A stretch of DNA of 64,000 nucleotides. Source: Fidelibacterota bacterium. GTDB lineage: Bacteria; Fidelibacterota; Marinisomatia; Marinisomatales; TCS55. The stretch is taken from positions 170,586 through 234,585 of the forward strand of contig PBPT01000016.1 in NCBI GenBank assembly GCA_002724735.1, read 5' to 3'. Shown one piece after another: positions 1 to 14,859 of this stretch (positions within the stretch are counted from its first letter, which is position 1; each line of letters opens with the position of its first letter). Below the pieces are notes generated by a model, which saw nothing but the letters and a program-made list of their open reading frames with translations, was not told where the DNA came from and did no database searches. Made by a program: the position numbers and the translations under genes.

Positions 1-473
1 TATTCCATGTATCTTGGTGTATTAAAACTGTAAGACAATGCAGGGCCTTGATCTAACGGAGTATTTGCATAGTCTGCTATATGACTTTGATGTGATATAT
101 TATGCATCTTGTTTGCACTAATAATTGCATAACAATTTTTTGCTGTGTCATTATACTCTGACCAATATTTTTTAAGCCATTTACTTCCATAAAAATTATT
201 GTTTAAAATATTCCCTCCTGCATGCCAACCGTCGTGCATTAATCTATCTTCTCTATTCCAAGTAGACCAACATACAAGAATTAAATCTTTAGGTGTAAAC
301 TTTTTTAGCAAGTTACACTCTAACATATGATGAGCAATAGAAACATTGCCGTGACCTGCATTAGCCCAATTTTCGAAAGGTATGTCTAAATCATATGCAA
401 TTATATCTGCCCATGTAGGCCACGGAAACCTTGTATAACTACATCCGAAAGCAAATATCCTGTCATACTTCAC
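1..473 (-). CDS. SGNH-hydrolase-like protein, 3' end outside window
   Basis: The reading frame stays open from a GTG at 473 to the window edge (157 codons). GTG is chosen because GGAGGAG lies about 5 bases upstream, while the nearby ATG at 477 runs into a stop after four codons. The N-terminus reads MKYDRIFAFGCSYT, and the GCS block (Ser12) matches the nucleophile block of SGNH/GDSL esterases. It resembles the proteins at 2055-2789 and 6103-6831, so it is one of three paralogs in this operon. The C-terminal DxxH block is outside the window, so the catalytic set cannot be confirmed. Such enzymes often deacylate or acylate sugars, and the sugar-enzyme neighbours fit that. The substrate is unknown. 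Confidence 0.6.
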   Translation of the reverse strand, partial: MKYDRIFAFGCSYTRFPWPTWADIIAYDLDIPFENWANAGHGNVSIAHHMLECNLLKKFTPKDLILVCWSTWNREDRLMHDGWHAGGNILNNNFYGSKWLKKYWSEYNDTAKNCYAIISANKMHNISHQSHIADYANTPLDQGPALSYSFNTPRYME

Positions 474-507
474 ACATATCTCCTCCAATTATTAAGTACA
501 TATATAA

Positions 508-1107
508 TTATCTAAGATTTTGAAAAACAGTCATGTTCCTGAGATCAGGATAATCTGCAGATGTCCATTTTTTTGGCTTACGTATTTCTGCATCAGGAAG
601 ACTATCTAAGCCTAGTTGGGCAGTTTCGGGTGTCATATAGTAATGATAGCCTATGTGTTCAATATCTTGTTCTTTCCAAGGAATATGTGGATCACGACCA
701 TCATAAGTCATACGTTTTAGAACATCATAAGTGAATTTATCATCACATAGTATTGCTCCGCCTCTCCCTAGACTTAGGTGTTTTTGAAATTGGAAACTTA
801 AACACATCAATGAATCAGATATATAACTATCTTTTTGCCAATACACAGCGGCATCTATAATTCTTGTATTACCTAAAAAATAATAATCTTCCCAGGGTTG
901 ATCTATCCAACTCCAAGGCAATTTTAATTTTTGCAAAGTCATAGGTACGCTAATGTAAGTATGGGTAGGACATACCATAGCCGCTAATGGTTCAATGCGT
1001 AAACATAATTCAATAGCATGTGTGCAAGAATCTGTTGCTACTGCATAAGGAGCACCATAAAATTGTGCAATATCTTGCTCAAATCTTTGCACTATTTCAA
1101 ATCCCAT
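508..1107 (-). CDS. Shortened DegT/DnrJ/EryC1-type PLP aminotransferase
   Basis: The protein has 199 residues; DegT-family sugar aminotransferases usually have about 370. The PLP-lysine block SFQFQKHLSLGRGGAI is present, with Lys109 at the Schiff-base position, followed by a GYHYYMTPETAQLGL block like the family's GYNYRMT...QAALGL. The sequence stops soon after, so most of the C-terminal small domain is absent. The family transfers an amino group to a keto-sugar nucleotide and works as a dimer. The ATG follows AAAGGA and overlaps the upstream glycosyltransferase-like gene by 11 bases. It could be a minimal active enzyme, a subunit needing a partner, or a decayed gene. No internal stop or obvious frameshift suggests decay. 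Confidence 0.7.
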   Translation of the reverse strand: MGFEIVQRFEQDIAQFYGAPYAVATDSCTHAIELCLRIEPLAAMVCPTHTYISVPMTLQKLKLPWSWIDQPWEDYYFLGNTRIIDAAVYWQKDSYISDSLMCLSFQFQKHLSLGRGGAILCDDKFTYDVLKRMTYDGRDPHIPWKEQDIEHIGYHYYMTPETAQLGLDSLPDAEIRKPKKWTSADYPDLRNMTVFQNLR

Positions 1108-2068
1108 TAGCTTTATCCTTTGCTCTATCTATTATTTTTTTGTAATGTATATATACGTGCTTAGACTGTTTTTCTGTTTTAACGATATCTATTGCTTTCA
1201 TGTAGTTGTGTTCTACTACATCTTGCATACTTTCACTTAATTCTTGTAGATTCTTTTTTGATAGTCTGTTTATTTCATCTACAATCATTGTTATACGCAA
1301 ATCGTTATCAGCAACACTATCAAATGAATAATTTATTTGAGTTGGTAATTTAAATCCTAGTGTTTCTAAATGTCTGTGTATACCTACATTTCCTAAAATT
1401 ATAAAAGGTTTTTTTGATATAATAGAATTCCATATTTTTTCAGTTATAAAAGGGCAATGTAAAAAAGATTCAGTTACTAAATTAATTACACACTTAGACA
1501 TTTGTATTGGTGGCGCATATTGATCCCAGGTTTGTCCTTCTAAGTATACTTGCTTAGGTTTCCAATATTTCCACTCGTATTGATCTTCGTCAAATAAATC
1601 TGGTTTGTAAAATTTACTTTCTTTAGGTTGATGCCAAGTGTAATAATTATAATCTAGTAAATTAAATTTAGCCAATCTATCTAATAATTTTTTCCTATGT
1701 ATTCTAGGCTTGTAATTCATACACAAAAATAATCTGTCTATTTGTTGCTTGTTGTTCGCAGAATTATTATGGTATACACTTTCATATAAAAAGTAATATG
1801 GCCAAATTTCAAATTTAAGATTTTTAAAACTATCTAAAAAACTATAATAATTTTTATCATAGCCTCCTTGAACCATATATAATCTGTTAAACTTAGACAT
1901 AGTATCAGTAAGTAGGAATGGGCGAATATCGTGCATACTTGCTTCTTCTGCACACATTACTCCTATGTCATCAGATTTATTTAAATCAATTAATTTATTA
2001 AGCATGTAATCATTACCATGTTTTGACACTATAGGGTGTATGTCATTCCATATGTTAAGATAAATCAT
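1097..2068 (-). CDS. GT10-like glycosyltransferase, paralog A
   Basis: This 323-residue protein has a C-terminal block TEKIWNSIISKKPFIILG that resembles the donor-binding region of GT10 fucosyltransferase-type GT-B enzymes (TEK...PV..G). A mid-protein block FLCMNYKPRIHR is shared in form with FICLNRRPHAHR in the 6818-8080 protein. The paralogs at 3379-4674 and 6818-8080 share the 'E..F...(T/S)EK...PF(I/V)...G' C-terminal pattern. It overlaps the upstream SGNH gene by 14 bases and the downstream aminotransferase by 11, so translation is probably coupled. A sugar-transfer role is inferred from the motif and context. Neither donor nor acceptor can be read from the sequence. Confidence 0.5.
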   Translation of the reverse strand: MIYLNIWNDIHPIVSKHGNDYMLNKLIDLNKSDDIGVMCAEEASMHDIRPFLLTDTMSKFNRLYMVQGGYDKNYYSFLDSFKNLKFEIWPYYFLYESVYHNNSANNKQQIDRLFLCMNYKPRIHRKKLLDRLAKFNLLDYNYYTWHQPKESKFYKPDLFDEDQYEWKYWKPKQVYLEGQTWDQYAPPIQMSKCVINLVTESFLHCPFITEKIWNSIISKKPFIILGNVGIHRHLETLGFKLPTQINYSFDSVADNDLRITMIVDEINRLSKKNLQELSESMQDVVEHNYMKAIDIVKTEKQSKHVYIHYKKIIDRAKDKANGI

Positions 2069-2789
2069 ACGTCTTTTTCAAAAATGGCAATATAATTTCT
2101 TGAGTGAACATTATATGTTGTGCTACTGTTGGATGGTAATCGTCTGGGCCTAAAGGAAGTCCTGATTCGTCCCTGGCCCATTCATACATACCCATTACTG
2201 GTAAAAATTTAGTTTTATCAATAAGCTTTACTAAATATCCTATTTCAGCATGATGTTCAGCAAGGCTATCTTGCCAATCACACATTCTAGTCATAAAGTA
2301 TTTAATATTATGTTTTTCTAAAAACCATTGTACCCTTAAAACATTCTCAATAGTATCAATTAATTTTCCTACCTCAGTATAAAAATTTTTATAAAAAATT
2401 TTTGATTTTGTTGTGGTCCAATGATGATTAAATATTTCCCAACTTTTAGTGCCATCAATAAACCCAGTAGGATTTTGTATCCAACCATCTGTATTATTAT
2501 ATTGTTGGCATGTTGGATTATCTACCCAAACTTCGTGCCTATCAGCACCCGACCATCCTATACCTACAATAATATTCTGAGGAAGAGTATCTTCAAGAGC
2601 TTTACTTACTTCATAAATTATACTTCTTGCAATCAATCCGTTGCCTTGGCTACTCATTCCTTTTGATATTAATCCAAAATTCTGAAAGTGTCTATTTAAT
2701 TGAATAGGCCACGATTGCATTTGATTTGAAGTTTCGCTAAAACTACAACCACTTGTAATTAGTAATTTTTTCTTTTTATGGATTTTCAT
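2055..2789 (-). CDS. SGNH-hydrolase-like protein
   Basis: This 244-residue protein starts with a basic stretch and then LLITSGCSFS, where Ser16 fits the SGNH nucleophile block. QGNGLI and GIGWSGADRHE follow, and near the C-terminus PDDYHPTVAQH supplies a DxxH pair. All four SGNH blocks can therefore be placed tentatively. SGNH proteins are ester hydrolases or acyltransferases on sugars and lipids. The start overlaps the acyltransferase gene by 4 bases (ATGA type). No signal peptide or membrane segment is evident, so a cytoplasmic or virion-bound role is more likely than secretion. Confidence 0.6.
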   Translation of the reverse strand: MKIHKKKKLLITSGCSFSETSNQMQSWPIQLNRHFQNFGLISKGMSSQGNGLIARSIIYEVSKALEDTLPQNIIVGIGWSGADRHEVWVDNPTCQQYNNTDGWIQNPTGFIDGTKSWEIFNHHWTTTKSKIFYKNFYTEVGKLIDTIENVLRVQWFLEKHNIKYFMTRMCDWQDSLAEHHAEIGYLVKLIDKTKFLPVMGMYEWARDESGLPLGPDDYHPTVAQHIMFTQEIILPFLKKTYDLS

Positions 2790-3382
2790 CTTAAAAGTCT
2801 TGCAGGAGTGCCTACATAGATTCCTTCTTTTGTAATACTTTTAGTTGCACTACTAAAAGCTCCAAGAGTAACATTATCGCATATTTCTATATTGTTAATT
2901 GCGGCACTTTTGAAATTAAACATACAATTTTTTCCTATTTTTGTTTTTCCTGCTATCATTGTACCGCTGTGTAACATACAATTATTTCCTATTGTAGTTT
3001 GGTGGCTTACTAAACAGTAAGTTTCTATAAAACAATGATTACCTACAGTTGCTCCTGCCATTAATGAACTAAAATTTGCAACACAAGAACCTTTACCTAT
3101 AGTTGCTCCGTCAAACACTATAGCACTATCATGAACATATGTAACACAATCACTATCGTATTCATCTAAAAGATCAATAGTTTGTTCCCTTTCTTTTAAG
3201 TCTAAAGCAAATCCTATAAAATATTGAAAATCATCTTTGTTTTTCAATACTTTGAATTCTTGCGGAGTCATAAGACTAGTATCTTCTATAACAAAACTTT
3301 TTCCATAAAACAAACTTTCCTGTGTAAGTGTGCTTTCAGCATACCCAATAATTTTTAATGGCTTGTCATTTTTTATTATCAT
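2786..3382 (-). CDS. NeuD/PglD-like hexapeptide sugar acyltransferase
   Basis: This 198-residue protein has an N-terminal part of about 80 residues (KIIGYAES start) and a C-terminal left-handed beta-helix of hexapeptide repeats such as ATIGKG, ATVGNH, TTIGNN, TKIGKN and VTLGAF, ending in VGTPARLL. This is the layout of NeuD/PglD/PerB acyltransferases, which transfer acetyl from acetyl-CoA to an amino or hydroxy sugar. His127 in LVSHQTTIG occupies the place of the catalytic His of PglD. The usual glycine-rich nucleotide-sugar loop at the N-terminus is not clear. In an operon with a DegT-type aminotransferase it would be the expected next step, N-acylation of an amino sugar; that is inference. 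Confidence 0.75.
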   Translation of the reverse strand: MIIKNDKPLKIIGYAESTLTQESLFYGKSFVIEDTSLMTPQEFKVLKNKDDFQYFIGFALDLKEREQTIDLLDEYDSDCVTYVHDSAIVFDGATIGKGSCVANFSSLMAGATVGNHCFIETYCLVSHQTTIGNNCMLHSGTMIAGKTKIGKNCMFNFKSAAINNIEICDNVTLGAFSSATKSITKEGIYVGTPARLLR

Positions 3383-4674
3383 CCGAGCCTCTTGAATAAA
3401 ATGTTTTTTGTAATAGGTTCTGCTAATAACTGTTCTTGTAAGTCTAAAATTCTAACTTGATTAAACATTAAAGTTGGTAACATTCTTTCATACAAGTCTT
3501 GTAATTCTTCTATACTCTTAGAACCTATCCAGTCTATTAATCCTAAAATTTTTGCGAGACGTTTATCATGCTGTTCTTCTTTATCATAGCTTTCGTCCCA
3601 ATAATCACTAAATGTTTCAAATCCCCATCTTTTCATATATTCTAAATTCCCTGGAGGGCCAACCATAATAAACGGTTTACAGTTAAGCATAGGCATCATT
3701 ATTTTTTCTGTAAGCAATCCTGTAGCTTGAGCAAACCTTGTTTCATTAACAATAGCACAAAAACTTTCGTCATAGTAGCTTTTAGGATTTGTATTCGTGT
3801 GTAAGTCCGGTGCTTGTTCTGTAATATCTAATGCACGTTTCATTTTTACGCCCATTGTTTGAGGAGCAAGTAAATCTAATTTTTGAGCACCATTTAAAAT
3901 AGGATTTTCCCATTTTTTTAATTTTTTTAAATTAAACCATAAATTATTTTTTAGCATAGATGGACTAGAACTGTATATCCAACTTAAATTTATTTCATTA
4001 GAATCAAATCTTCCAGCAAGGTATGATGCAATTAAATGCCTATGAGCGCCATACTTCCAATTACCGCACCAAAATTTTGCACGTATACTAGTTTTTTCTG
4101 GAATGTCTATATCTATTTTCATAGTTGCAGGATATATCCAACCAACAGGTGAACAATATAAATTTAGGTTAGGATATGTCATTCCAAAAAATTCATTTAT
4201 TCTATAATCAGGAGCATAAACTGTTACATCTGGAAGTTCATTACGTTCTGCAAATATAGAAATACTATCTAACTCCCTAGCTCTAATATCTGCAATATCG
4301 TCTAATTCATAATTTGCATAAATGTGCTGAGGATTAGTTTCATGGATATTGTAAGTACTTAGAGGTTCTAGCAAATAAATTTTTAATCCTTTTTTCCTAA
4401 TTCTATTCCTAGGTTTTACATCAAGTATTGTGCTTGGTAATTCTAGATAACCTATTTTTCCCACACCCATATATACAGCATAAGGATTATTTACACCTTT
4501 GAAAAAAGTTTTACCTAAATCAATAAACATGCTGTCCCAACCTTCTTGTTGCTTTGTTTTTTCTCGTAAAGGGAACCAAGCAGGTCCTAGAGGGTAGTTG
4601 CTATACAGTCCTGTATTGTTCGGATTAAGCAAGTCATGTTCTTCTAATAGATTATGATGATGTGAGTATCGCAT
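3379..4674 (-). CDS. GT10-like glycosyltransferase, paralog B
   Basis: This 431-residue protein has a C-terminal third with NETRFAQATGLLTEKIMMP, then CKPFIMVGPPGNLEYMK and WGFETFSDYWDESYD. It matches paralog C (6818-8080) closely in pattern and paralog A more distantly. This looks like the donor half of a GT-B enzyme. The N-terminal half is unlike the other paralogs, as expected if acceptors differ. The ATG has GGAAG upstream and overlaps the radical SAM gene by 23 bases; the 3' end overlaps the acyltransferase start by 4. The enzyme class is inferred, and a non-enzymatic virion role cannot be excluded. Confidence 0.5.
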   Translation of the reverse strand: MRYSHHHNLLEEHDLLNPNNTGLYSNYPLGPAWFPLREKTKQQEGWDSMFIDLGKTFFKGVNNPYAVYMGVGKIGYLELPSTILDVKPRNRIRKKGLKIYLLEPLSTYNIHETNPQHIYANYELDDIADIRARELDSISIFAERNELPDVTVYAPDYRINEFFGMTYPNLNLYCSPVGWIYPATMKIDIDIPEKTSIRAKFWCGNWKYGAHRHLIASYLAGRFDSNEINLSWIYSSSPSMLKNNLWFNLKKLKKWENPILNGAQKLDLLAPQTMGVKMKRALDITEQAPDLHTNTNPKSYYDESFCAIVNETRFAQATGLLTEKIMMPMLNCKPFIMVGPPGNLEYMKRWGFETFSDYWDESYDKEEQHDKRLAKILGLIDWIGSKSIEELQDLYERMLPTLMFNQVRILDLQEQLLAEPITKNILFKRLG

Positions 4675-6106
4675 TTTTCTTCCATCTTTTTACATAAGGA
4701 CTAAATTCAACAAATGTTTTATGAAAATTTAAATTTCTTCTTTTATCGTATTCTTCAAAAAATCTAACAAAATTCTCCTGTGCATTTATTTTGTCTTGTT
4801 CTGTAGGAAATCCTTGCTTCATAAAATCTAAACTTCTTTCAAAACGCTTAATTTGATGTGGTTTGAATCCAACCCAGCGACTTTCACGTTGTTTATCAGT
4901 ATTAGCTTTCATAAATTCTAAACACTCATCCCCGTAATGCCAAAATTCCTCTGGCAATACTTTTAAACTTTGCCAAGCAGGATAATGTAAAGCTGGTGTG
5001 TCCACAAATACTCTATGGTTGCCATAGTATGTCAACTTTCCATTATCATCACGCCTTGTTTTTTTTACATTATGTATACGTTGTAATTCAAGAATACCTT
5101 GCATTAGTTTTTTAACACTTGGCATACTCAACATATTTAATGTAACAATAAAAGTTACTAGGCCGTCTTTGGTTCTAGTTAAATAATTGTTTACATTATT
5201 CCATAGAAGCTCAAAATCTAAACCGTCACGCATATATTCGGCTTGTTCTCCCCATCCGTCTACACTTACATACAGCCTAAAGCTTTCTAATTTTTTATAT
5301 TCATCTATGAAACTTACTGTATCTACAAACCTATCCCAATTTTTTTTTGGAACACTTGCATTTGAGGTGATGCTAATATTAAGATCATCTCGTGGATGAT
5401 CTAAGACATAATCTAATACACGAAATGTATTTTTATCCATTAAAGGCTCACCTCCGGTCATCCTAAAATGTTTTAATTTAGGATATAACTCAGGCCACCA
5501 TTTCCAAAAAGCTTCCACATAAGGATTGTGTTCTCTGTTTGGAATAGGATAATGTCCTATGCTCTTAAAATATTCAATACTATTGTGTGGAACTTTAGTA
5601 GGATATGGACCATTTTGCTCAATATCTTCTGCCCACTTACTACTCAAATGAGGACTACAGTAACTACATGCAAGATTGCAAGCATGATTAAAATTTACTT
5701 CTAAATATGTTGGATCAATGTCCCCTTCGGAACCAGTAGCAATAACTTCTTCCCATCCTTGTTGTGCCCAGGGCTCTGAACTGCGATAAGCACGATCACT
5801 AAGTTGTTTACCTTGAGCTTCTACTTTCCAACAACTATTACATCCTTCTGGTTGTTCTCCTTTGAGCATCATTTTACGTTGTGCTTTTTTCTCTGGTGTA
5901 TTGTGTAAAGCTCTTGGATTATTTTCTACTGCTTTTGGATCAATTTTGTGTAGCGGAGGTAAAAAACAACTATTAGTAAGACCATTAGTCAAATGGATAC
6001 TTGACCACAACCATTTAGCCATGCACATGCTAGGAGATATTTCATCCAACATGGGCAATACTTGCTGTGCGGCAGTTTGCGGATCTATTTCAGTTATCTT
6101 TTTCAT
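4652..6106 (-). CDS. Radical SAM enzyme with N-terminal twitch/SPASM-like cysteines, paralog 1
   Basis: This 484-residue protein contains the radical SAM motif CNLACSYC (Cys143, Cys147, Cys150), which binds the 4Fe-4S cluster that cleaves S-adenosylmethionine. MTGGEPLM, the SAM-binding GGE block, lies further on. Upstream of the core are Cys28, Cys47, Cys89 and Cys92 in the spacing of half a SPASM domain (a 'twitch' auxiliary cluster), here N-terminal rather than C-terminal. Twitch enzymes include MoaA and BtrN; BtrN oxidises an amino-cyclitol alcohol. A sugar-oxidising role beside an aminotransferase is plausible but not shown, and peptide modification is the main alternative. It is clearly paralogous to 8073-9476, and its start overlaps the SGNH gene stop by 4 bases. 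Confidence 0.8.
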   Translation of the reverse strand: MKKITEIDPQTAAQQVLPMLDEISPSMCMAKWLWSSIHLTNGLTNSCFLPPLHKIDPKAVENNPRALHNTPEKKAQRKMMLKGEQPEGCNSCWKVEAQGKQLSDRAYRSSEPWAQQGWEEVIATGSEGDIDPTYLEVNFNHACNLACSYCSPHLSSKWAEDIEQNGPYPTKVPHNSIEYFKSIGHYPIPNREHNPYVEAFWKWWPELYPKLKHFRMTGGEPLMDKNTFRVLDYVLDHPRDDLNISITSNASVPKKNWDRFVDTVSFIDEYKKLESFRLYVSVDGWGEQAEYMRDGLDFELLWNNVNNYLTRTKDGLVTFIVTLNMLSMPSVKKLMQGILELQRIHNVKKTRRDDNGKLTYYGNHRVFVDTPALHYPAWQSLKVLPEEFWHYGDECLEFMKANTDKQRESRWVGFKPHQIKRFERSLDFMKQGFPTEQDKINAQENFVRFFEEYDKRRNLNFHKTFVEFSPYVKRWKKNAILTSS

Positions 6107-6831
6107 TTTAAATATTCAGCATAATCCTCTAACAAATGTTCAGCATACGCTTGTTGTGATAGAGGACCTGGATGGCCGCCATCTAAAGCCTTATCACATG
6201 AGTGTCGTGTAATATCTGTATCTGCCATAACCAAACCCTTTTCTAATTTGCTTCTATGCAAACTTAACAACGGCGGAGGCAAATGTAAAACTTTTTTAAA
6301 GCCCATGTTTTTTAGTGTAAGATCAGCATAATTTATATAATGATATACACTAATTTGATCATCGTAAGTAGACCAAACAAATTTATAATATTTTGGAGAT
6401 CTACCTTTTTTTACCCACGGTCCTAAATTTTCTACTTTATCTAATTGCACGTCTGCATATTGATCTAAAACACAGTGTCGGTCTATGTAACTCCATTGAA
6501 TTATTACAGCATCTGTATCAGGATTCATAGCAGGAATTTTTTCTCTCCAATAAGTTTGTAATTTTTTAAGTTTTTTTCCTTGATGAACCGTATAATATTC
6601 TTCTTGTTTTATCATGTTTATAGTATGCATAATTAATTTATTACTTGAGCCAGGAGATGCACAGTTAATCACCCTCCTACCAATTTTCTTTGCAATTATA
6701 TTTGTGTAACCCAATCTTGTAGGAAGTTTTCCTGGACCATTGTTACCATTGGGATAAAGTTCGAAGCAGTCTTCTAAACCATGTCCGTATGTATAACTAC
6801 AACCAAATGCAAATAAACTAGGCGTATCCAT
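6103..6831 (-). CDS. SGNH-hydrolase-like protein
   Basis: This 242-residue protein opens with MDTPSLFAFGCSYT, with Ser12 in the nucleophile block. VINCASPGSSNKLI follows, then AVIIQWSYIDRH in the middle and LDGGHPGPLSQQAYAEHLL near the C-terminus, giving a DxxH (DGGH) pair. The N-terminus is nearly the same as that of the partial gene at 1-473. The family hydrolyses or transfers acyl esters. The ATG has AAGGAAG upstream and lies 14 bases inside the preceding glycosyltransferase-like gene. There is no signal peptide. This is the best preserved of the three copies for all SGNH blocks. Confidence 0.65.
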   Translation of the reverse strand: MDTPSLFAFGCSYTYGHGLEDCFELYPNGNNGPGKLPTRLGYTNIIAKKIGRRVINCASPGSSNKLIMHTINMIKQEEYYTVHQGKKLKKLQTYWREKIPAMNPDTDAVIIQWSYIDRHCVLDQYADVQLDKVENLGPWVKKGRSPKYYKFVWSTYDDQISVYHYINYADLTLKNMGFKKVLHLPPPLLSLHRSKLEKGLVMADTDITRHSCDKALDGGHPGPLSQQAYAEHLLEDYAEYLK

Positions 6832-8080
6832 TTAACTTCCTTAACAAATTATTTTTTAAATCAATATGTATTGTTTGTTGCCTATATATCCAATGGAAAA
6901 AATTGTGCATCATGATGTCGTAGCAACTTTGATAAAAATTATTAATTTCATCATTTGACATAGAAACAATTCTACCTATTTCTTTCGATAACACTATTAA
7001 TCTTTTCTCGTCATCCTTAATATCATCATAACTTTCGTCTATTATACCATTAAAAGTTTTATAACCTAAACTTTTTAACCTATGCAAATCATTATATGCA
7101 CCCACTAATACAAAAGGCTGGAAGTATATAATTGGTTTGAAAACTTTTTCACTAAAAAAAGTTTGTGATCCTCTCCCAAATGTTTCCGTAACGACATGTA
7201 GATAACTCATATAAAATTTATCAGGGGCATCATCATGTACTGGATTTTCTGTATTTGGGTCTACTCCGTCATTATATTCCAAAGGTAAATCTTTAAGAAG
7301 ACGATTCATAGCTTTAGGCTTTGCTGTTAATCCAGGATAGTATTCATTCATAAGTTTAAGATTTTTATCAAAAACTTCTGTATGGTTGTCAACTTTTTTA
7401 GCAAGTGTAAGTATACCTTTGTGTTTATAATTATGTAATAGTGTTGTAATTGCTATTCTATGGGCGTGAGGTCTTCTATTCAAACAAATAAACTTGTGTG
7501 GCCTTTCCCAATTATTCATGCTTAGGACACCTTGTTCTAATAGTTCTCCCAAATCGTGCTCTCGTAGATGCTGTTCCCACCAATTATGATACACAGTAGG
7601 CGTACCATATTGGGTTTCTTCCATATTGCCCGACAGTATTACAAAATCATTATATTTTAGGAAATATTTACTCTTGATAGCATCAATTAAAATTTTAAAG
7701 AACGAATTATGATCCCAACCTTCCATGGTATTCACAATTAAAATTTTACATCTACCTGTTTTTATATTTAATATATGTTCTGGTTCAATATCTATAATAG
7801 GTTTATCTGGCACAGAACCATAATGTACTCCTTCTATAGGTTGCATCAATATAAAAGGATAGTAATATTTTCCTTTGTAATTTGAATCAATATCTTCGTA
7901 TACCCTTGTTTTATGTATACCTGCTACTCCTATGTTAATACCAGGATCACCATGAGCATTGTAAGTATTATTCAAATAATCTAAATTAATACCACAATGA
8001 TACTTGTATAACTTTTGACCATCGGGAGTTTCTGGATAGTCGTTTAAATCTGTCCTATGCCATATTGGAACTTTATGCAT
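6818..8080 (-). CDS. GT10-like glycosyltransferase, paralog C
   Basis: This 420-residue protein carries FICLNRRPHAHR in the middle and, toward the C-terminus, VTETFGRGSQTFFSEKVF, PFVLVGAYNDLHRLKSLGYK and IIDESYD. The second half fits a GT-B donor-binding region of GT10 type and pairs with paralogs A and B. The start overlaps the radical SAM gene by 8 bases, with AGAGG before the ATG. The radical SAM/GT pairing repeats at 4652-6106 with 3379-4674, which suggests the two proteins act in one step sequence. Family assignment is by motif only; donor and acceptor are unknown. Confidence 0.5.
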   Translation of the reverse strand: MHKVPIWHRTDLNDYPETPDGQKLYKYHCGINLDYLNNTYNAHGDPGINIGVAGIHKTRVYEDIDSNYKGKYYYPFILMQPIEGVHYGSVPDKPIIDIEPEHILNIKTGRCKILIVNTMEGWDHNSFFKILIDAIKSKYFLKYNDFVILSGNMEETQYGTPTVYHNWWEQHLREHDLGELLEQGVLSMNNWERPHKFICLNRRPHAHRIAITTLLHNYKHKGILTLAKKVDNHTEVFDKNLKLMNEYYPGLTAKPKAMNRLLKDLPLEYNDGVDPNTENPVHDDAPDKFYMSYLHVVTETFGRGSQTFFSEKVFKPIIYFQPFVLVGAYNDLHRLKSLGYKTFNGIIDESYDDIKDDEKRLIVLSKEIGRIVSMSNDEINNFYQSCYDIMMHNFFHWIYRQQTIHIDLKNNLLRKLNGYA

Positions 8081-9476
8081 TTGCTACCTCTTTGCACCTA
8101 CTATAAAAATTTGCAAATTCTGGAAAAGTTTTTACAAAGTTTTTATTTCTTCTCAAATCATAAGCATTAAAAAAATTATAAAACTGCATCATCTCAGTTG
8201 TTTTATCTTTGCTTATATTTTGCGTCACATAGTCTACAGCCCTTGCCATTTTTGAAATTTCGGTATCTTGAAATCCGTGATGTCCTATTGCTTGTTCTTT
8301 ATGATCTTGCATAAATTTTAAATCAGACTCCATTGTAGCTAACATATTATTATCAGCTAATGCAATAGTTTGCCAGTTAGGATAAGTTAAATAACTTATA
8401 TCTAACCATAACTTTTTCCACGTAGCTGAACCATGTTTAGTACGCCATTCAAGTAACCATTCTAGCAAATTTCTAAAATTAGGAATACTTAATAAATTAT
8501 ATGTTGCCATAATAACTGTTTTTGACTTCCAATCTAACATTGGAATTTCGCTTGTTACTTTATTAAGATTGCTAATAAACTTTTTATAATCTAATCCATC
8601 TCTAATATATTCTGCTTGTACTCCTGTACTTTCGACGCTTGTATATAATTCATAGTTTTTTACTTTATTATTAAGAATTAGATCTTTTGCTATAGGTATT
8701 AATCTATCAATAAAAGCATCTTGTACTCCTAAATTTGTGTTTATTCCTATTATCAAATCTGGATTAGGATTATCTTGAATATACTTTAATACTTTCCATG
8801 TGTGTTTACTTAACAACGGTTCTCCGCCTGTAATTCTAAAAACTTTTAAATTAGTATATAGCTCAGGCCATATTTTCCAAAATGCTTCAATATAAGGATT
8901 AACTTCTCTGTTAGGAATTGGTATTTGATTTTTAATGCGTAAGTAATCAAGATGATGGACTTGATAATTTCCTAGGTCATATGCTCCACTGTGTTCAATA
9001 TCCTCCATCCATTTACTAGATATTTGTGGACTGCAATACATACAAGCAAAATTACAAGTATTATTAAAACTAACTTCAACATAAGTTGGTAAAAAATTTT
9101 CATCTAAAGGGTTTGCTTTTATTTTTTCAAGTTGTCCTTCGTTCCAATCTTCTCCACTTTTAAAATGCCTATCACTAAAATGCCCATGATTTAAATTTTC
9201 TATATTCCAACAATAGTTGCATTCTTCTGGTTGTTCTCCTGCAAGCATTAGTTGGCGTTGTTTTATTTTATGTTTTGTATTATGCAATGCATGGGGATTT
9301 TGTTTTATTTCATCTAAAGGAATAAAATGAGGAGCAGGATGATGACAGCTATGGGTATGCCCATTATGCAAATGCATTGTTACTTGTGTCCATTTTGCAA
9401 GACACATTGAACAACTAATTTGCTTTAGCTTCTCTCTAGCGTATTCGGCTCCAGCATTATAACTGCTTTGACTCAT
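8073..9476 (-). CDS. Radical SAM enzyme with N-terminal twitch/SPASM-like cysteines, paralog 2
   Basis: This 467-residue protein has the cluster motif CNFACMYC (Cys141, Cys145, Cys148) followed by SPQISSKWMEDIEHSG, almost the same as in paralog 1, and FRITGGEPLL as the SAM-binding block. The N-terminal cysteines Cys22/Cys25, Cys44, Cys86 and Cys89 form the same auxiliary-cluster pattern, with CHHPAPH around Cys44. Shared blocks such as NREVNPYIEAFWK and GEQPEECNYCW show recent duplication from a common ancestor. The function is probably SAM-dependent oxidation or rearrangement of a sugar or peptide. Keeping two copies, each next to its own GT10-like gene, suggests different substrates. GAGAG precedes the ATG. 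Confidence 0.8.
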   Translation of the reverse strand: MSQSSYNAGAEYAREKLKQISCSMCLAKWTQVTMHLHNGHTHSCHHPAPHFIPLDEIKQNPHALHNTKHKIKQRQLMLAGEQPEECNYCWNIENLNHGHFSDRHFKSGEDWNEGQLEKIKANPLDENFLPTYVEVSFNNTCNFACMYCSPQISSKWMEDIEHSGAYDLGNYQVHHLDYLRIKNQIPIPNREVNPYIEAFWKIWPELYTNLKVFRITGGEPLLSKHTWKVLKYIQDNPNPDLIIGINTNLGVQDAFIDRLIPIAKDLILNNKVKNYELYTSVESTGVQAEYIRDGLDYKKFISNLNKVTSEIPMLDWKSKTVIMATYNLLSIPNFRNLLEWLLEWRTKHGSATWKKLWLDISYLTYPNWQTIALADNNMLATMESDLKFMQDHKEQAIGHHGFQDTEISKMARAVDYVTQNISKDKTTEMMQFYNFFNAYDLRRNKNFVKTFPEFANFYSRCKEVANA

Positions 9477-9478
9477 GT

Positions 9479-10402
9479 TTATCTCTCAATATCAATGAAT
9501 TGATTTGCCATCCTACCAGGATTTTGATAAACAGTTTTAAAAAATTTGCTTTGTTCTTCACTAAAAGGATCTACTGGGATAGGAACATCTAATTCATTTA
9601 ATAATTTGCTACCTAATTTTTTCACTGCATCTAAAAGATTTTCCTCTTCTATTTTTACTTGCTCATTCCAATAGTTGTTCAAATATTCAAAATCTCTTAC
9701 ATTTATGTAGTCCCATTCTGTAGCCATTGTTTTGTATAGGCCTTCTCTTGCTCCGTATATTGCCCAAAGCCCATTTTTTGCATCGCTGCCAACTGTTAAC
9801 CAAATATACAACCTATGTAAGTTCTTCCAGTGTAAATTTGCAAACTCCTCTTTCGTAACACGCACTCCTCTATCTAATGCCATTTTCACACCTTCACGAA
9901 AGCCTGCTCTCCAAGCTTGCTGGGCAGTATGGTTATTATATACATAACTAAAACAACTATTCATTTGAATATAATTTATATCCCAACAAAAGTCAACTTG
10001 TGCATGAGCATTATTAGGATCAGCATTTTCATGGGTACGCATATTAAGTACAAATTTCTTTGGCCAACATTTAAGTCCGCCATTGCCATACATTAAACCA
10101 TTGACTACATTATATCCTGCCCAACTTATAACACTATGCTGTAGATCTTCATGTTCATCAAAATCTATAACTTGCTGAATAAATTTAGGATCTATTATGT
10201 TATCTCCATCTACGGTTATAAATCTATCAGTTTCACTTATTTCAGCACAAGCTTTGTGTGCGGCGTCAGAACCTTCAACTCCATGTATACGTTTTGCCCA
10301 CGGAACTTTACTGCATAAGTCTGCATAGTTTTTTTCTGCATTAGGTTCGTCATAACTTAAATAAATTATGTCATAGTCTGTTACTTTAAATCTGTTGGTC
10401 AT
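9479..10402 (-). CDS. GT2-like (GT-A fold) glycosyltransferase
   Basis: This 307-residue protein begins with a Rossmann-type strand (DYDIIYLSYDEPNAEKNY), then GVEGSDAAHKACAEI and RFITVDGDNIIDPKF. The DGD element is the metal-binding DxD site of GT-A enzymes. This N-terminal pattern is typical of GT2-related transferases that use a nucleotide sugar. The remainder (WAGYNVVNGLMYGNGG, then a mostly helical C-terminus) would form the acceptor part. No membrane segment is visible, so it is probably soluble. The start overlaps the upstream gene stop by 4 bases; the downstream radical SAM gene follows after 2 bases. Confidence 0.65.
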   Translation of the reverse strand: MTNRFKVTDYDIIYLSYDEPNAEKNYADLCSKVPWAKRIHGVEGSDAAHKACAEISETDRFITVDGDNIIDPKFIQQVIDFDEHEDLQHSVISWAGYNVVNGLMYGNGGLKCWPKKFVLNMRTHENADPNNAHAQVDFCWDINYIQMNSCFSYVYNNHTAQQAWRAGFREGVKMALDRGVRVTKEEFANLHWKNLHRLYIWLTVGSDAKNGLWAIYGAREGLYKTMATEWDYINVRDFEYLNNYWNEQVKIEEENLLDAVKKLGSKLLNELDVPIPVDPFSEEQSKFFKTVYQNPGRMANQFIDIER

Positions 10403-11733
10403 AAAATTTCGTGTCCATAACTATCAAAATACTTTGCTGTATATATACTAAGATCTTCTTTATGTTCTGCATCATATTTAAACGGAATTACTAATTTATC
10501 AGCTAACATTGATAATGGTATTTTCAATGACCTATAAAGTATATTAGGATCATGTTTTGCAGTAATACTAAAGTACAAAAGGTCATCTTGATCATAATTA
10601 GTTGTTTGAAAATATTTTAATGTCGAGGGGTGTATATTCAGTTGCCAGAATTTTTCATTAGTATGTTGAGTTACTATAATATCAAATTCTTTATTTAACT
10701 GTACATTATATAATTTTGTACCTAGTAAAACTTTGTCTCCGTTTTTTAATGTATTTTGATCTTGTAATGTTAAATCAGTTTTTAAATAATTAAACTTTTT
10801 CTTGTCAAAAGTATCCATATGAATTTTAAAGTCTTTTTTACAAACTATTATATGACGTTCATCTGTATGATAAACTATATCATCTGCACTTTTATCATAA
10901 TGAGATTCTATAATTTTTGCACTATAAATTTTATTAAAATCTAAATATAATTTTCCATCATCGATAATTTGTGTAAAAGTAAGATTTTTGTTTGTGTCGT
11001 TCCTAAGTGCTACATTAGATACTAGCATTTCTGCATTTTTTGGATCAAAATTTGTGTGTGCGGGCTGGTCTTCTAATATTTTATATACACAGTCTCCTAT
11101 CCATACATGCTGTCCTGCCAAATGATTTAAATCATCATACCATACATCAACATGTATACCTTTATATTGTTGTTCAAATTTTAATTCTAACACTGAAAAC
11201 TTTTGCGTAGGAATGTCAGATAAGAATACATTTTCAATAAACAACTTAGAATTTTTTTTGCTCCATCTTTTATCCTTTCCGTTATCTGCAAGTAATTTAT
11301 AGACATTATCATTATACCAAACTATGTCATCTTTTTTATAAGCTAACTCTTTAACCCATATGTAGACTTTTACATCTTCATAAATTTCAGATAACGAAAA
11401 ATGACCTGCAAGGCTTTTTGCAATAACAGGTATTTGATAGCACATAGCAGATGCAGTTTTAAACGTATCTTGATAGTTTTTTTCTTTTAAAGTTTTACGC
11501 TTTAACGCAGTATCATAAATGACCACAAAATCTGTTGTACGTTTTTCTCCAGTTAGAATAGGACTAGCAATATCGTAAAGTACTTCAAGTATTTCTTGCC
11601 CTTCTTCAACCTCATCTATTACACCTGATATTTTAAATATTTCTCCGCTATCGCTGTAATAGTATACATACGTAAGATCATCAGTTTCTACACTAGTAGT
11701 AAGTGCTTTTAATAATTCGCTTAAATCAGACAT
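10399..11733 (-). CDS. Unknown protein with carbohydrate-binding-like motifs
   Basis: I do not recognise this 444-residue protein as a named family. It contains YKKDDIVWYNDNVYKLLADN and later GQHVWIGDCVYKILEDQ, which resemble the 'Y..G.IV.Y.N.LYKA' core of CBM5/12-like chitin-binding modules. The same core occurs five times in the giant virion protein at 21892-37689. The rest looks beta-rich, with no signal peptide or membrane segment. It lies between two glycosyltransferase genes, overlapping the upstream one by 8 bases and the downstream one by 4. It may bind glycans or be a decoration protein that the operon modifies. Both ideas are inference. Confidence 0.4.
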   Translation of the reverse strand: MSDLSELLKALTTSVETDDLTYVYYYSDSGEIFKISGVIDEVEEGQEILEVLYDIASPILTGEKRTTDFVVIYDTALKRKTLKEKNYQDTFKTASAMCYQIPVIAKSLAGHFSLSEIYEDVKVYIWVKELAYKKDDIVWYNDNVYKLLADNGKDKRWSKKNSKLFIENVFLSDIPTQKFSVLELKFEQQYKGIHVDVWYDDLNHLAGQHVWIGDCVYKILEDQPAHTNFDPKNAEMLVSNVALRNDTNKNLTFTQIIDDGKLYLDFNKIYSAKIIESHYDKSADDIVYHTDERHIIVCKKDFKIHMDTFDKKKFNYLKTDLTLQDQNTLKNGDKVLLGTKLYNVQLNKEFDIIVTQHTNEKFWQLNIHPSTLKYFQTTNYDQDDLLYFSITAKHDPNILYRSLKIPLSMLADKLVIPFKYDAEHKEDLSIYTAKYFDSYGHEIL

Positions 11734-12565
11734 TTAAATAATTCCTGTATCTTTCAATTACTGGAGATTTTTCTAAAAAATCATTTTCAGTATAATGCAA
11801 GATACCTGTTTGGTTATAATTTCCAATCTTAATATCACAATCTCTTGACATATAAAAGCCGACTCTATCTTGCCAGTTATCAGACCCATCAACCCATCCT
11901 TGACAATATTTTTTCATATGAGTAAATGTAGGAAAACTTGCTTTAGCATTTGTAATATCATTTGTACAATCTAAAATTAATGCTACTATAGAAGCACACA
12001 CATCAATACTAACGTGTTTAGGTCTTGTGACTCCTTCTAAAAACTTTTCGTAAAACGCCTGCCAGTTTTGTACGACCAATTCTAAAAGTTTGTAAAATTC
12101 TAATGACATATTTGATTTTTCAAAGTAATGAAATCCTGCAAAAAGATTAGGAAGATTATTTGCAATAAATGCTTTTCGATAGTATTGCGTATCTGCAATT
12201 TCTCCTCTATATGTAAGAACACTACTAGTAAAAAACAATTTGTAATTTTCTAAAAATTTCCACCATGTTGTTATATCTTGCAAGATTAACATATCAGTAT
12301 CCATTACAATAGTTTTATCATAAGGACTAGCATGATAAAGCTTCCATCTATTTTCAACTTTCCAGTCACTGAACTGTGCGTCATCATTCCATGGAATTTC
12401 TATTATCTTATCAAATAAATTTTTGAACTCAACTTTGTCGTTTGTTACAATACTAATTTTAGTTTCTGGATTAGTAACTTTAAGACTCATTGCAAGCACT
12501 TCTGCTTGTTTTACATAATTTACTTCAGAAAGATTTTGTGCAAGTACTAGTATACCTTTAGACAT
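11726..12565 (-). CDS. GT8-like glycosyltransferase
   Basis: This 279-residue protein has an N-terminal strand GILVLAQN, then KTIVMDTDMLILQD, where DTD is the DxD metal/nucleotide-sugar site expected in GT8-type GT-A enzymes. GFHYFEKSNM and HVSIDVCASIVALIL follow, and HYTEND near the C-terminus may provide a metal-binding His. It is paralogous to the next gene upstream (12558-13412), with matching N-terminal and DTD regions, so the pair is a tandem duplication that has diverged. GAGG precedes the ATG. GT8 enzymes retain anomeric configuration. The donor is unknown. Confidence 0.6.
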   Translation of the reverse strand: MSKGILVLAQNLSEVNYVKQAEVLAMSLKVTNPETKISIVTNDKVEFKNLFDKIIEIPWNDDAQFSDWKVENRWKLYHASPYDKTIVMDTDMLILQDITTWWKFLENYKLFFTSSVLTYRGEIADTQYYRKAFIANNLPNLFAGFHYFEKSNMSLEFYKLLELVVQNWQAFYEKFLEGVTRPKHVSIDVCASIVALILDCTNDITNAKASFPTFTHMKKYCQGWVDGSDNWQDRVGFYMSRDCDIKIGNYNQTGILHYTENDFLEKSPVIERYRNYLNV

Positions 12566-13412
12566 TTTCTACCTCGTCTATCATTCTACCTAAACTAAAT
12601 TTATTCATAACATGTATAGTTTGTCCTTTTGTGCTTAAAGCTGTATATTCTCCCATGTAATCTTTCTTTTCAACAAGGAACATCATTTTATCATCGTCTA
12701 ATTTCCAAAGTATATCTTTATCTGTTGTGTATAGCATTTTGCCTGGCAATTCTTTTGCGAAAGTACCTTGAGCAAATCCATTCATAATATGTATTGCAAT
12801 ACTAAAAGCAAAATCATTTCTAAACAGAGAAGAGGTAATTTGGTATGCTCTTCGGTAATGATCCCATTCTTCTTCGATATGCTTTACTAGATCAAAGTAT
12901 ATTTTATTAACATTAGTTTTTCTAAAAAATACACATGTAGCCCAATAAAAAGGAACTCCAGTATCGCTTATATATTTAAATTCTTGTTCATTTCTTACTT
13001 GTGCAATATCTGAGGATTTTTTATATATCATAAAATCGTCATCAGAATTAAAACAAGATCCTAATAAATTATTAGAAATAATATAATCAGTATCTAAAAG
13101 AAGAGTTTCATAATAAGGTGATAAATCAAAGGCTTTACTTCTAGATCTATTTTTAAATGTAGCTTGTTTTTGATACATAGCTCCATCAAAATATAATCTT
13201 TCATTTTTTTCCGAATGACTATTCAAGGAAATAACTTTATCAAATATAGAACTATCAAATGCAGATTCTAAATATTCTGTAGAATCTGTTATCACTGAAG
13301 TTCCGATATTAAGAAACTTTTTTATTCGTTTTGCTAAAAAAACTGCTTGCTTTATGTAATCAACTTGTGTATTATTTTTAGCAATTAATAATGCCCCTCT
13401 ACTTTTCTGCAT
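12558..13412 (-). CDS. GT8-like glycosyltransferase paralog
   Basis: A GTG at 13433 would give 291 residues, but the ATG at 13412 is preferred. From there MQKSRGALLIAKNNTQVDYI lines up with MSKGILVLAQNLSEVNYV of the neighbouring paralog. The product is then 284 residues. TLLLDTDYIISNNLL supplies the DxD site. Later blocks (PFYWATCVFFRKTNV, IHVMNKFSLG) correspond to the HY/FAG and H..N segments of the paralog. It overlaps the first gene of the operon by 14 bases and the next by 8. The two copies probably use different acceptors; this is inferred from divergence outside the donor site. Confidence 0.55.
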   Translation of the reverse strand: MQKSRGALLIAKNNTQVDYIKQAVFLAKRIKKFLNIGTSVITDSTEYLESAFDSSIFDKVISLNSHSEKNERLYFDGAMYQKQATFKNRSRSKAFDLSPYYETLLLDTDYIISNNLLGSCFNSDDDFMIYKKSSDIAQVRNEQEFKYISDTGVPFYWATCVFFRKTNVNKIYFDLVKHIEEEWDHYRRAYQITSSLFRNDFAFSIAIHIMNGFAQGTFAKELPGKMLYTTDKDILWKLDDDKMMFLVEKKDYMGEYTALSTKGQTIHVMNKFSLGRMIDEVENV

Positions 13413-13758
13413 GATCGACGAGGTTCTCCACACTACGTTGTGTTTTTAATTTCATATATTCTGAGTGATAAGAGTTGGACGCTTCAAAATAAACATTAAT
13501 TATGTCTTGGTAAAAAGCTTCAATATCGTCGATTATGAGAGGAATATCATTATCGTCTGTAAGAACCACATCGTCGTTTTGATGGTTATCAATTAGTAGT
13601 TTTACAAAATTTATAAGTTCTTTAGTAACAGTAAATTGTCCACCATTAGTAAAATGTAATAAATTTTCTGCATATTTTTCGTTAAGTAGTCTTTTTTGGT
13701 TATTTAGAGTAACCATATAATTAGAAAAGTCTAATGCTTTTGATAACTTTTCGTCCAT
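13399..13758 (-). CDS. Unknown small protein, first gene of the early operon
   Basis: This 119-residue protein is acidic and mostly helical (ALDFSNYMVTLNNQKRLLNE, a mid-region of Asp/Glu-rich sequence, YHSEYMKLKTQRSVENLVDH). I cannot assign a family. The start is well supported: AGGAGG lies 6 bases before the ATG, and a consensus promoter lies about 70 bases upstream. As the promoter-proximal gene it should be the most strongly made product of the operon. A regulatory or accessory role for the following sugar genes is possible but unproven. Confidence 0.6.
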   Translation of the reverse strand: MDEKLSKALDFSNYMVTLNNQKRLLNEKYAENLLHFTNGGQFTVTKELINFVKLLIDNHQNDDVVLTDDNDIPLIIDDIEAFYQDIINVYFEASNSYHSEYMKLKTQRSVENLVDHAEK

Positions 13759-13826: not shown

Positions 13827-13855
13827 ATTATAGCATTATTATGAATATATGTCAA
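13827..13855 (-). promoter_or_regulatory. Consensus sigma70 promoter of the sugar operon
   Basis: On the minus strand TTGACA (13855-13850) and TATAAT (13832-13827) are both perfect and separated by exactly 17 bases. The predicted start would leave a leader of about 60 bases before AGGAGG and the ATG at 13758. The -35 box lies directly beside the stop codon of the preceding structural gene. This is expected to be read by host RNA polymerase without phage factors, hence early. Confidence 0.85.
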
Positions 13856-13858
13856 TAA

Positions 13859-14278
13859 TTATAAGTTAGATACAAGTGTGTATGTAGGGGATGGTACAGA
13901 TACGGTTGTTTGCATAGTGCCGTCAATAGATGCGGTACCATCTGGAACTACAGCTTCTATATCACTAGTTACAGCACCAAGAACAGTTTCGTCTGGTACT
14001 CCATAGGAAGGATCTGAAAACTCGACTTTAAATTGTAACACACTATCATTCATTTCCATAGCATATACGGTATATCTATTCGGATTATATACTCCTCCTC
14101 CTGAATTGTAATATGCAGTTTGATAGTAGCTGAACATATAATCATGCCCTATGCCTCCGTAAGACTGTCCTACGCCTGTTGAATTTATAGTACTACTATA
14201 CGCAAAATCTACTGTTCCTACTTGTGCAAGCATATTTTTCCAATCAAGACTTTTAGCTTGGCTTCCTGTATAGTTCAT
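13859..14278 (-). CDS. C-terminal half of a split virion structural protein
   Basis: This 139-residue frame starts at an ATG overlapping the stop of the upstream frame (ATGA). Its sequence continues the homology to the C-terminal half of the 313-residue paralog at 14860-15801: SLDWKNMLAQVGTVDFAY aligns with GLDWAALCSEIGVVKFGQ, and LQFKVEFSD with LEFRIEFND. Only a weak ribosome site precedes the ATG. It is therefore likely to be made either by coupled re-initiation or as a -1 frameshift extension of the upstream frame at an A6 run (14296-14301). An assembly error in that run is the third option. The role is presumably virion structure, by position. Confidence 0.55.
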   Translation of the reverse strand: MNYTGSQAKSLDWKNMLAQVGTVDFAYSSTINSTGVGQSYGGIGHDYMFSYYQTAYYNSGGGVYNPNRYTVYAMEMNDSVLQFKVEFSDPSYGVPDETVLGAVTSDIEAVVPDGTASIDGTMQTTVSVPSPTYTLVSNL

Positions 14279-14808: not shown

Positions 14809-14828
14809 GAAATAACCTCTCTATAGTA

Positions 14829-14838
14829 CTATTTAGCG
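14829..14838 (-). promoter_or_regulatory. Candidate late promoter (TAAATA type)
   Basis: The minus strand reads CGCTAAATAG, sharing TAAATA with the T4 late consensus TATAAATA. It sits about 20 bases before the ATG at 14808, in a 51-base gap. The distance is plausible for a short leader. Two of the eight consensus bases differ, so it is moderately supported. Confidence 0.4.
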
Positions 14839-14859
14839 TTTGAAGTGGGGGTAAAAAAT

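Follow-up and report, generated by a model that had tools for sequence, protein, structure and literature searches.

A phage operon that encodes sugar-active proteins together with radical SAM enzymes occupies positions 3 to 13758 of the window, the whole 64,000-nucleotide stretch of DNA that was analysed, as a reading of the sequence without database searches (the sequence-only reading) had proposed, and the set recurs in many phages. Synteny and promoter are conserved in independent relatives, so the cassette is more than a chance assembly. Our preferred interpretation, to which we give a probability of roughly 45%, is that of an early glycan-building cassette which is linked to receptor-binding genes and alters the surface glycan of the infected cell.

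Extent, core genes and promoter

All 15 open reading frames were confirmed on the minus strand, on which the promoter and all other window genes described below are also located. They run from position 13758 to position 3 at the window edge, with overlaps of no more than about 35 bases and a biggest gap of 19 bases. The tight packing of same-direction genes described earlier was thus borne out, but the boundary was not: the run extends approximately 9.7 kb past the window edge, comprises about 25 genes in total and ends at about C57:160868. Beyond the edge lie genes for a UGD-like dehydrogenase, a second GT-A enzyme, two more N-twitch radical SAM enzymes, a GNAT protein, a fatty-acid desaturase and another radical SAM protein. 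The last gene in the window (3..488) is the start of a third SGNH-like gene, which in full spans C57:170246-171073. The source contig, C57, represents a 335-kb T4-type jumbo phage with a gp23 capsid gene. It also carries baseplate and tail genes and has a near-identical counterpart, C77, which together with gp23 rules out that it is a host chromosome.

The first gene of the cassette (13399..13758) encodes S119, a conserved small soluble protein (alignment A5) present in 66/82 and 70/80 loci of two anchor sets, among the matches listed. It is followed by genes for two glycosyltransferases, 12558..13433 (with a likely ATG start at 13409) and 11726..12565, whose profile (A2) matched glycogenin with an E value of 5e-6. 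The D of a DxD-type motif and a C-terminal H are conserved in these proteins (invariant D91 and H257 in the second). None of 22 members matched Pfam GT8; judged by sequence, both transferases are best labelled GT8-like. The next gene (10399..11733) encodes a 444-aa protein with weak similarity to CBM_5_12 (Pfam E 0.009; 16.4 bits, below the cutoff of 26.2) and stands ahead of the GT-A gene in 64 loci of the GT-A-anchored set, among the matches listed. GT-A (9479..10402) is the most conserved gene of the core. Its AlphaFold2 model (pLDDT 86) retrieved the S-glycosyltransferase SunS in Foldseek (E 1.4e-4, probability 1.0), and a capsid-glycosylation enzyme of PBCV-1 was also among the fold matches. 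Transmembrane-like segments were not found in the core genes.

A near-perfect sigma70-type promoter (13827..13855, TTGACA-17-TGCTATAAT) opens the cassette. With TTGACA-N17-TATAAT and the TG extension of an extended -10 element, it matches the consensus at 12 of 12 positions and corroborates the earlier claim of a single consensus promoter ahead of the run. It is the sole site with at least 11/12 matches on its strand across the structural block. Among 90 distinct relatives, 82% have a promoter of at least 10/12 upstream of S119, compared to 7% in shuffles, and 69% one of at least 11/12, compared to 0% in shuffles. The tail genes of relatives carry the T4-late motif ATAAATA 10-30 bases upstream. 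Due to these different promoter classes, the cassette is probably transcribed early; since many further genes of the phage likewise have a promoter of sigma70 type upstream, the timing is inferred from promoter class. The conserved promoter slightly favours action inside the infected cell.

Radical SAM enzymes and accessory genes

Two N-twitch radical SAM enzymes are encoded in the window. The copy at 8073..9476 belongs to the position-1 (core) subfamily and reached 302 bits with NF033640 (N_Twi_rSAM, full model), the second copy (4652..6106) 340 bits. Both values exceed the curated cutoff of 170 and confirm that the enzymes are of twitch type; the two genes just outside the window scored 302 and 266 bits, again above the cutoff. 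Seven cysteines, four in the N-terminal twitch and three in the CX3CX2C core, do not vary across a diverse alignment (A1) and correspond to residues 28, 47, 89, 92, 143, 147 and 150 of the second copy. CX3CX2C was retained in 292/292 relatives. In the tree, copies from position 1 group together (7 changes versus 18 in shuffles). A resemblance to BtrN-type enzymes holds at the level of the twitch domain, where profile positions 21-90 align with BtrN 188-258 (E 9e-5). The cassette enzymes, however, carry the twitch N-terminally, and the oxidation activity of BtrN cannot be assigned to them. A window radical SAM protein used as single query yielded no relative in a scan of genome contigs, and the diverse alignment contained no block conserved enough to serve as a query; lower-scoring bacterial relatives sit in polysaccharide clusters (L126, L128).

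Each locus harbours about four radical SAM genes that are divergent from one another (mean within-locus identity 27%). Such an abundance would also fit an early soluble product, a secondary metabolite or peptide that acts as a small molecule or modifies host proteins with no surface glycan involved, and a secondary-metabolite cluster has already been proposed for jumbo cyanophages. We consider this improbable because neither a precursor peptide nor a synthetase was seen in the run and because transferases form the core.

The remaining genes are accessory. Three encode GT-B-like proteins. The AlphaFold2 model (pLDDT 69) of the first (6818..8080) gave trehalose-phosphate synthase/VldE as top Foldseek match (E 4e-4, probability 0.99); it and the two others, 3379..4674 and 1097..2068 (the latter with the motif FITEKIW...PFIILG), share an alignment (A4) in which E, EK and P residues are invariant. 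The predicted folds of the GT-A and GT-B models thus support sugar-active enzymes. The label GT10-like had to be abandoned, as Pfam GT10 was found in 0/16 members and the fold search gave GT-B enzymes generally. The call of three SGNH proteins rests on the motifs GCSxT near the N-terminus and D/N-x(1-2)-H near the C-terminus and on one family match. The protein encoded at 6103..6831 (GCSYT, DGGHPG; alignment A6), an SGNH-type hydrolase/esterase-like protein, reached an E value of only 0.064 with Pfam Lipase_GDSL_3, while that at 2055..2789 (GCSFS, DDYHP) matched DUF6071 with 33 bits (cutoff 27).

The putative acyltransferase (2786..3382) is clearly a left-handed beta-helix protein of the PglD/LpxD fold class, with PDB matches to both; as its 112.7 bits with TIGR03570 remain below the curated cutoff of 160.8, NeuD/PglD-like is the appropriate term. 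The DegT-type PLP protein (508..1107) matched Pfam DegT with 60.6 bits (cutoff 19.8) and kept the PLP-lysine motif SFQFQK, but it is of half size (199 aa). About 75 internal residues and the small domain are absent, AHBA synthase was matched in two pieces in the PDB, and its relatives are just as short (163-205 aa). A scan of viral contigs with this protein recovered this phage alone, a consequence of its short and divergent sequence. Among the GT-A-anchored loci, DegT occurred in 10/80 and NeuD in 7/80, both together in six loci where 0.9 were expected (among the matches listed). Being rare yet co-travelling, the two genes constitute an accessory branch and not the core. The acyl-amino-sugar route previously suggested (BtrN-type oxidation, DegT transamination, PglD acetylation) is therefore weak and not supported in that form, given the truncated DegT, the rarity of DegT and NeuD and a radical SAM oxidation that is not assignable. 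The joint occurrence of a UGD-family dehydrogenase, DegT and a hexapeptide acyltransferase in some loci is reminiscent of the WbpA/WbpE/WbpD amino-sugar route, from which the cassette differs by the absence of a WbpB-like 3-dehydrogenase and by its half-size DegT.

Conservation and the adjacent tail genes

Two independent single-protein scans of viral contigs, one with the second radical SAM copy (at least 600 matches) and one with GT-A (more than 600 stretches), revealed the same order: tail fibre, small virion protein, S119, GT8, GT8, CBM-like protein, GT-A and N-twitch radical SAM. Behind this core the gene content varies, with additional radical SAM genes and genes for GT-B transferases, SGNH, NeuD, DegT and UGD. 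This ordered core was present in well over 100 sampled environmental phage contigs, and loci anchored on GT-A alone contained a radical SAM gene in 79/80 and GT8 in 74/80 cases, among the matches listed. The conserved neighbourhood that the sequence-only reading had named as a check was thus recovered, and an independent occurrence of the enzymes in relatives, which would have refuted it, is contradicted. Since accessory genes turn over even between close relatives (L034 versus L036), one might think of a loose set of acquired morons that share no pathway. This is very unlikely, as synteny contradicts it: the core order is fixed in 70-79 of 80 GT-A-anchored loci (among the matches listed), the dedicated promoter is conserved and the active-site motifs are intact.

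The conserved upstream neighbours, small virion and tail-fibre genes (13859-14278, 14275-14808, 14860-15801, 15811-17286 and 17334-19202; span 13859..19202) with PHROG tail fibre/virion and Peptidase_G2 matches, lie outside the cassette. Their position raises the possibility, which we find plausible but doubtful, that the same enzymes decorate the phage itself, attaching a modified glycan to the tail-fibre or small virion proteins whose genes lie just upstream. The cassette always follows directly after a tail fibre and a small virion protein, its enzymes are soluble and nearly exclusive to phages, the GT8 proteins are glycogenin-like, and the PBCV-1 match of GT-A points in the same direction. 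Moreover, the syntenic site of the phages Atu_ph07 and Phosso holds a different radical SAM cassette around a protein with a (CHxS)3 tail reminiscent of peptide modification, and gp170 of Atu_ph07 is the first member of a published virion-protein cluster (CDS 170-215). On the other hand, the promoter is of early and not of late type, and the link between accessory content and the neighbouring tail protein is not robust.

Co-variation of accessory enzymes with the adjacent virion protein was at first suggested by a partial Mantel r of 0.46 but vanished when ranks, additional covariates and a more stringent set were used (Spearman -0.03, coefficient p 0.8), so the initial value was a scale effect and the idea was dropped. 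A search for cysteine-rich modified tails in the aquatic loci gave nothing convincing, and the sigma70-type promoter was not found in the Atu_ph07 or Phosso cassettes.

Known islands and proposed function

By the phage's gp23 gene and by its own position, the cassette is an island of variable glycosyltransferase genes next to the tail fibres of a T4-type phage, as in pelagimyophages. According to the accessible part of the report on their host recognition cluster (Zaragoza-Solas et al. 2020, PMC7029224), this island also contains several glycosyltransferases with GT8 as the commonest family, has radical SAM gene cassettes that differ between two genomes, and was proposed to alter the host O-chain. 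Radical SAM appears there in passing, and that part describes neither a conserved order of core genes nor a promoter or family analysis. For jumbo cyanophages, islands of paralogous glycosyltransferases and nucleotide-sugar enzymes were likewise proposed to alter the host O-chain and to block other phages; that work is focused on group 2.1 cyanophages and 'radical SAM' is absent from its text (Iyer et al. 2021, PMC7824862). The gtrABC seroconversion operons of P22-like phages are also phage-borne, independently expressed and glycan-altering and are thought to change receptors, but their products are multi-pass membrane proteins (GtrC with 9-11 TM helices), whereas the cassette run is almost wholly soluble (PMC2629481). 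A membrane flippase and multi-pass transferase of this type were not found among the core genes. Hence, similar islands are already known, while the radical-SAM-rich, promoter-delimited form appears to be undescribed.

The host-glycan interpretation would assign the following roles. It builds on what the sequences show, namely the order of the genes, their families and folds, intact active sites and the class of the promoter, while substrates, radical SAM chemistry, acceptor and benefit are inferred. The promoter at the tail-gene border, read by the host RNA polymerase, would activate the cassette independently of the late virion genes. The two GT8-like enzymes and GT-A, as the conserved core, would transfer sugars, and the variable GT-B transferases, SGNH proteins, UGD, NeuD and DegT may synthesize or decorate particular sugars. 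The radical SAM enzymes may oxidize or rearrange sugar carbons, either on a nucleotide sugar or on the completed glycan. The most likely acceptor would be the surface glycan of the infected cell, e.g. the lipooligosaccharide core. If the altered glycan were no longer bound by related phages or by the phage's own progeny, the linkage to receptor-binding genes would be explained.

Some observations bear on this interpretation. The UGD-family dehydrogenase in the run and nucleotide-sugar-type genes elsewhere in the phage (cytidylyltransferase, phosphomannomutase-like and epimerase genes) speak for it, as does the location of bacterial radical SAM relatives in polysaccharide clusters. Against it speak that no flippase, polymerase or initiating phosphoglycosyltransferase was found in the run and that membrane segments are almost nil, unlike in gtrABC. 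Enzymes of host glycans are typically common to phage and host; the core enzymes, in contrast, turned up among bacterial contigs only where a phage contig had apparently been mis-binned.

GT-A occurs virtually only in viruses. Neither S119 (queried with the L070 homologue) nor GT8 nor GT-A had a tblastn match among 50,697 deposited phage records; INPHARED, which lacks any match to the cassette's GT8 and GT-A, may not include metagenomic pelagimyophages. With core glycosyltransferase families not found in the deposited set and hardly at all in bacteria, and at least 600 viral-contig matches in each scan, the cassette is apparently a common but unstudied phage trait, whose conserved promoter switch provides a simple timing prediction. 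It is conceivable, though rather unlikely, that T4-type jumbo phages reserve the locus behind their tail fibres for radical SAM enzymes that modify either the adhesion apparatus or its receptor, such that aquatic phages produce radical-tailored glycans with N-twitch radical SAMs and phage-only glycosyltransferases, and the rhizobial phages Atu_ph07 and Phosso modify the (CHxS)3 tail of a virion protein with SPASM radical SAMs. Two relatives that carry a radical SAM cassette in the syntenic position, Agrobacterium phage Atu_ph07 and Sinorhizobium phage Phosso, are in culture, so this idea can be tested in the laboratory; if true, phage-host recognition would involve a post-translational or glycan chemistry of a new class. 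If the radical SAM enzymes act on sugars, they would form a large, so far unexploited collection of glycan-tailoring enzymes and could be relevant to the way in which phages disguise receptors or compete for them.

Gene content and enzyme families of the cassette

All 15 minus-strand open reading frames which the sequence-only reading had described as a phage operon for making and attaching a modified sugar are present. The gene run of this cassette, starting at 13758, extends past the window edge to position 160868 of contig C57, which contains the window. Three further radical SAM proteins, two of them of the N-twitch type, are encoded there, along with a UGD-family dehydrogenase, another GT-A, a protein of 263 aa, a GNAT and a fatty-acid desaturase. 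The radical SAM proteins of the cassette are members of NF033640 (N_Twi_rSAM). In their N-terminal module they resemble BtrN's twitch domain, and in their core viperin, MoaA and cytosylglucuronate decarboxylase. The protein pair at 11726-13433 is GT8-like (glycogenin match, E 5e-6); no member of its family matched the GT8 Pfam models. For the protein at 9479-10402, a sequence comparison with the PDB yielded no glycosyltransferase match. Its confident model (pLDDT 86) has fold matches to SunS, WrtF and a PBCV-1 capsid glycosyltransferase but, since the TM-scores are low (~0.34), only a predicted GT-A fold class is assigned. The earlier label 'GT10-like' had to be abandoned: the three proteins concerned share one alignment whose model is GT-B, an assignment of moderate confidence because of its pLDDT of 69. 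Catalytic motifs are intact; the SGNH proteins retain GCS and the C-terminal D/N..H in most relatives. A DegT-type protein does exist, but it is half-size, as are its relatives.

Conserved neighbourhood in a T4-type jumbo phage

A viral-contig scan with one radical SAM protein as query matched at least 600 rows. Among the matches listed of this and a GT-B scan, 82 loci, including four from copies of this phage, revealed a near-fixed order of tail fibre, small virion protein, S119 (the small soluble protein opening the cassette), GT8, GT8, (CBM-like), GT-A and radical SAM, followed by a variable gene set. To avoid circularity, a second scan was anchored on GT-A alone (at least 600 rows). The co-occurrence expected from the sequence-only reading was recovered: among the matches listed, 80 GT-A loci, some sharing contigs with the first set and some in either set being close relatives, contained radical SAM (79/80), GT8 (74/80), S119 (70/80) and CBM-like genes (64/80). 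The CBM-like gene preceded GT-A 64 times and radical SAM followed it 76 times. Each locus has on average about four radical SAM copies, paralogues of old origin that share 27% identity on average and 46% at most; the copies adjoining GT-A group together on the tree as a core subfamily, with 7 label changes against 18 in shuffles. Between close relatives, sugar-making and core enzymes are well retained (NeuD 92-94%, UGD 93%, radical SAM 83-89%, GT-A 85-86%), while GT-B (6818-8080), SGNH, CBM-like and virion neighbours are diverged or swapped out. DegT and NeuD are accessory genes, occurring together in six loci vs 0.9 expected.

The window corresponds to C57:170586-234585 of a MAG-like assembly. 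C57 (335,231 bp) is 99.9% identical to C77, a second contig of this assembly (153 kb). Judged by its genes, C57 belongs to a phage, because it encodes a T4-type gp23 capsid protein, baseplate gp25/gp53/gp5-like proteins, a collar-type fibre and a baseplate wedge protein with relatives in jumbo phages of the Phosso, SCTP-2, Atu_ph07 and PA5oct type. By gp23, Sinorhizobium phage Phosso (69%), Vibrio phage 2.275.O (67%) and PA5oct (65%) are nearest. The gp5-like spike (window 41801-44266) has a VgrG3-like C-terminal domain (PF21277, E 4.5e-30), probably a muramidase/chitosanase-type tip. Within the baseplate-fibre block, one 5265-aa ORF (window 21892-37689) encodes a giant virion protein, whose counterparts in Atu_ph07 and Phosso have ~4,500 aa. 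C57 also encodes about ten tRNAs and a permuted-type tmRNA (at ~42.1 kb; L015 11357-11701; predicted tag ANDNYAPEMAMAA). A QueE-like radical SAM protein, recognized by motif (C57:140044-140949), suggests a 7-deazaguanine pathway. Consecutive cupin, cytidylyltransferase, phosphomannomutase-like HAD and NAD epimerase genes (C57:130096-132481) constitute a second nucleotide-sugar cassette of the same phage.

GT8, GT-A (two queries) and S119 had no tblastn match in INPHARED (50,697 deposited phage records). NF033640 exceeded the cutoff in two of 245 genomes of the same bacterial phylum, one being this phage; GT-A was found in two and GT8 in one, each time including this phage. Across 84,980 species genomes, GT-A occurred at four loci. 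Three of these show the complete arrangement of the phages, as would be expected of mis-binned phage contigs; the fourth is a distant relative. As single-protein pattern scans detect close relatives only, this absence is not absolute.

Radical SAM cassettes of cultured phages

Atu_ph07 and Phosso possess the same structural series of baseplate wedge, giant virion protein, 200-aa protein and tail fibre (E ~1e-100 against the aquatic fibre profile). The cassette behind it is a different one, encoding a cupin-like protein, three SPASM-type radical SAM proteins, of which at least one resembles peptide maturases, and, among their genes, a 296/306-aa protein (Atu_ph07 gp170, L237 25119-26009; Phosso, L235 25415-26335). 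Despite 42% overall identity, the C-termini of the latter are near-identical (CHSSCHASCHNSRSRR / CHTSCHASCHSSRSRR) with a near-invariant (CHxS)3 tail. In the Atu_ph07 study, the virion-protein cluster comprises CDS 170-215 (PMC6102473), which makes gp170 a probable virion-cluster protein, presumably present in virions. Together with the SPASM enzymes, the tail suggests that a phage virion protein is modified in RiPP style. No cassette was found at the corresponding site of Vibrio phage 2.275.O. The cultured 255-kb Vibrio phage K566 carries an N-twitch-like radical SAM array (L234 21549-28285 and 37861-38916; HMM E 1e-17 to 1e-30), interspersed with hypothetical genes and adjoining a gene annotated as PagP for lipid A acylation.

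Without proving homology of function, the synteny with Atu_ph07 and Phosso raises the likelihood that the window cassette modifies the phage's own virion proteins, as do its linkage to tail genes and its nearly phage-exclusive enzymes. Accessory co-variation with the virion protein, when tested, was not robust. A virion target is given somewhat lower odds than a host glycan.

Expression timing and target

A promoter (13855-13827) separates the last virion gene from S119. Upstream of S119 in 90 distinct relatives, sigma70 matches of at least 10/12 occurred in 82% (7% in shuffles) and of at least 11/12 in 69% (0% in shuffles). Comparable enrichment was not found upstream of GT8, GT-B, fibre and small virion genes; GT-A regions showed weak enrichment. 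For the main families of fibre and small virion genes, the T4-type late motif ATAAATA was present upstream in 36-81%, against 5-6% in shuffles, mostly 10-30 bases ahead of the gene start; the small v313 group (6%) is an exception. The motif occurs upstream of S119 in only 10% and of cassette-internal genes in ~0-1%. Since S119 is preceded by sigma70 sites whereas tail genes carry the late motif, host RNA polymerase may read the cassette independently of late transcription. Transcription of the tail genes could also continue into the cassette, as the search for a terminator at their junction found none. The C57 S119 promoter class, TGcTATA[AC]T, also precedes an array of minus-strand small genes at 326-335 kb (L023, L024), many with their own TTGACA-TGcTATACT promoter; this array has the appearance of an early host-takeover region.

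The probability that glycans are what the cassette acts on is put at about 0.8; its sugar donors, radical SAM reaction and acceptor are what we infer. Early-type expression and lower-scoring radical SAM relatives in bacterial polysaccharide clusters (L126, L128) tentatively favour a host glycan, which the cassette would alter, at slightly short of even odds. Unlike gtr- or Wzx/Wzy-type O-antigen routes, against which this argues, the cassette nearly lacks membrane proteins, still allowing LPS core or a cytosolic protein as the modified target. Glycosyltransferase islands adjoining T4-type tail fibres are described for pelagimyophages, radical SAM cassettes receiving a single mention (PMC7029224), and glycan-modification clusters of jumbo phages were reported by Iyer et al. 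(PMC7824862). Judged on the open-access literature, such islands and clusters are the known kind, of which this cassette appears to represent a new form.
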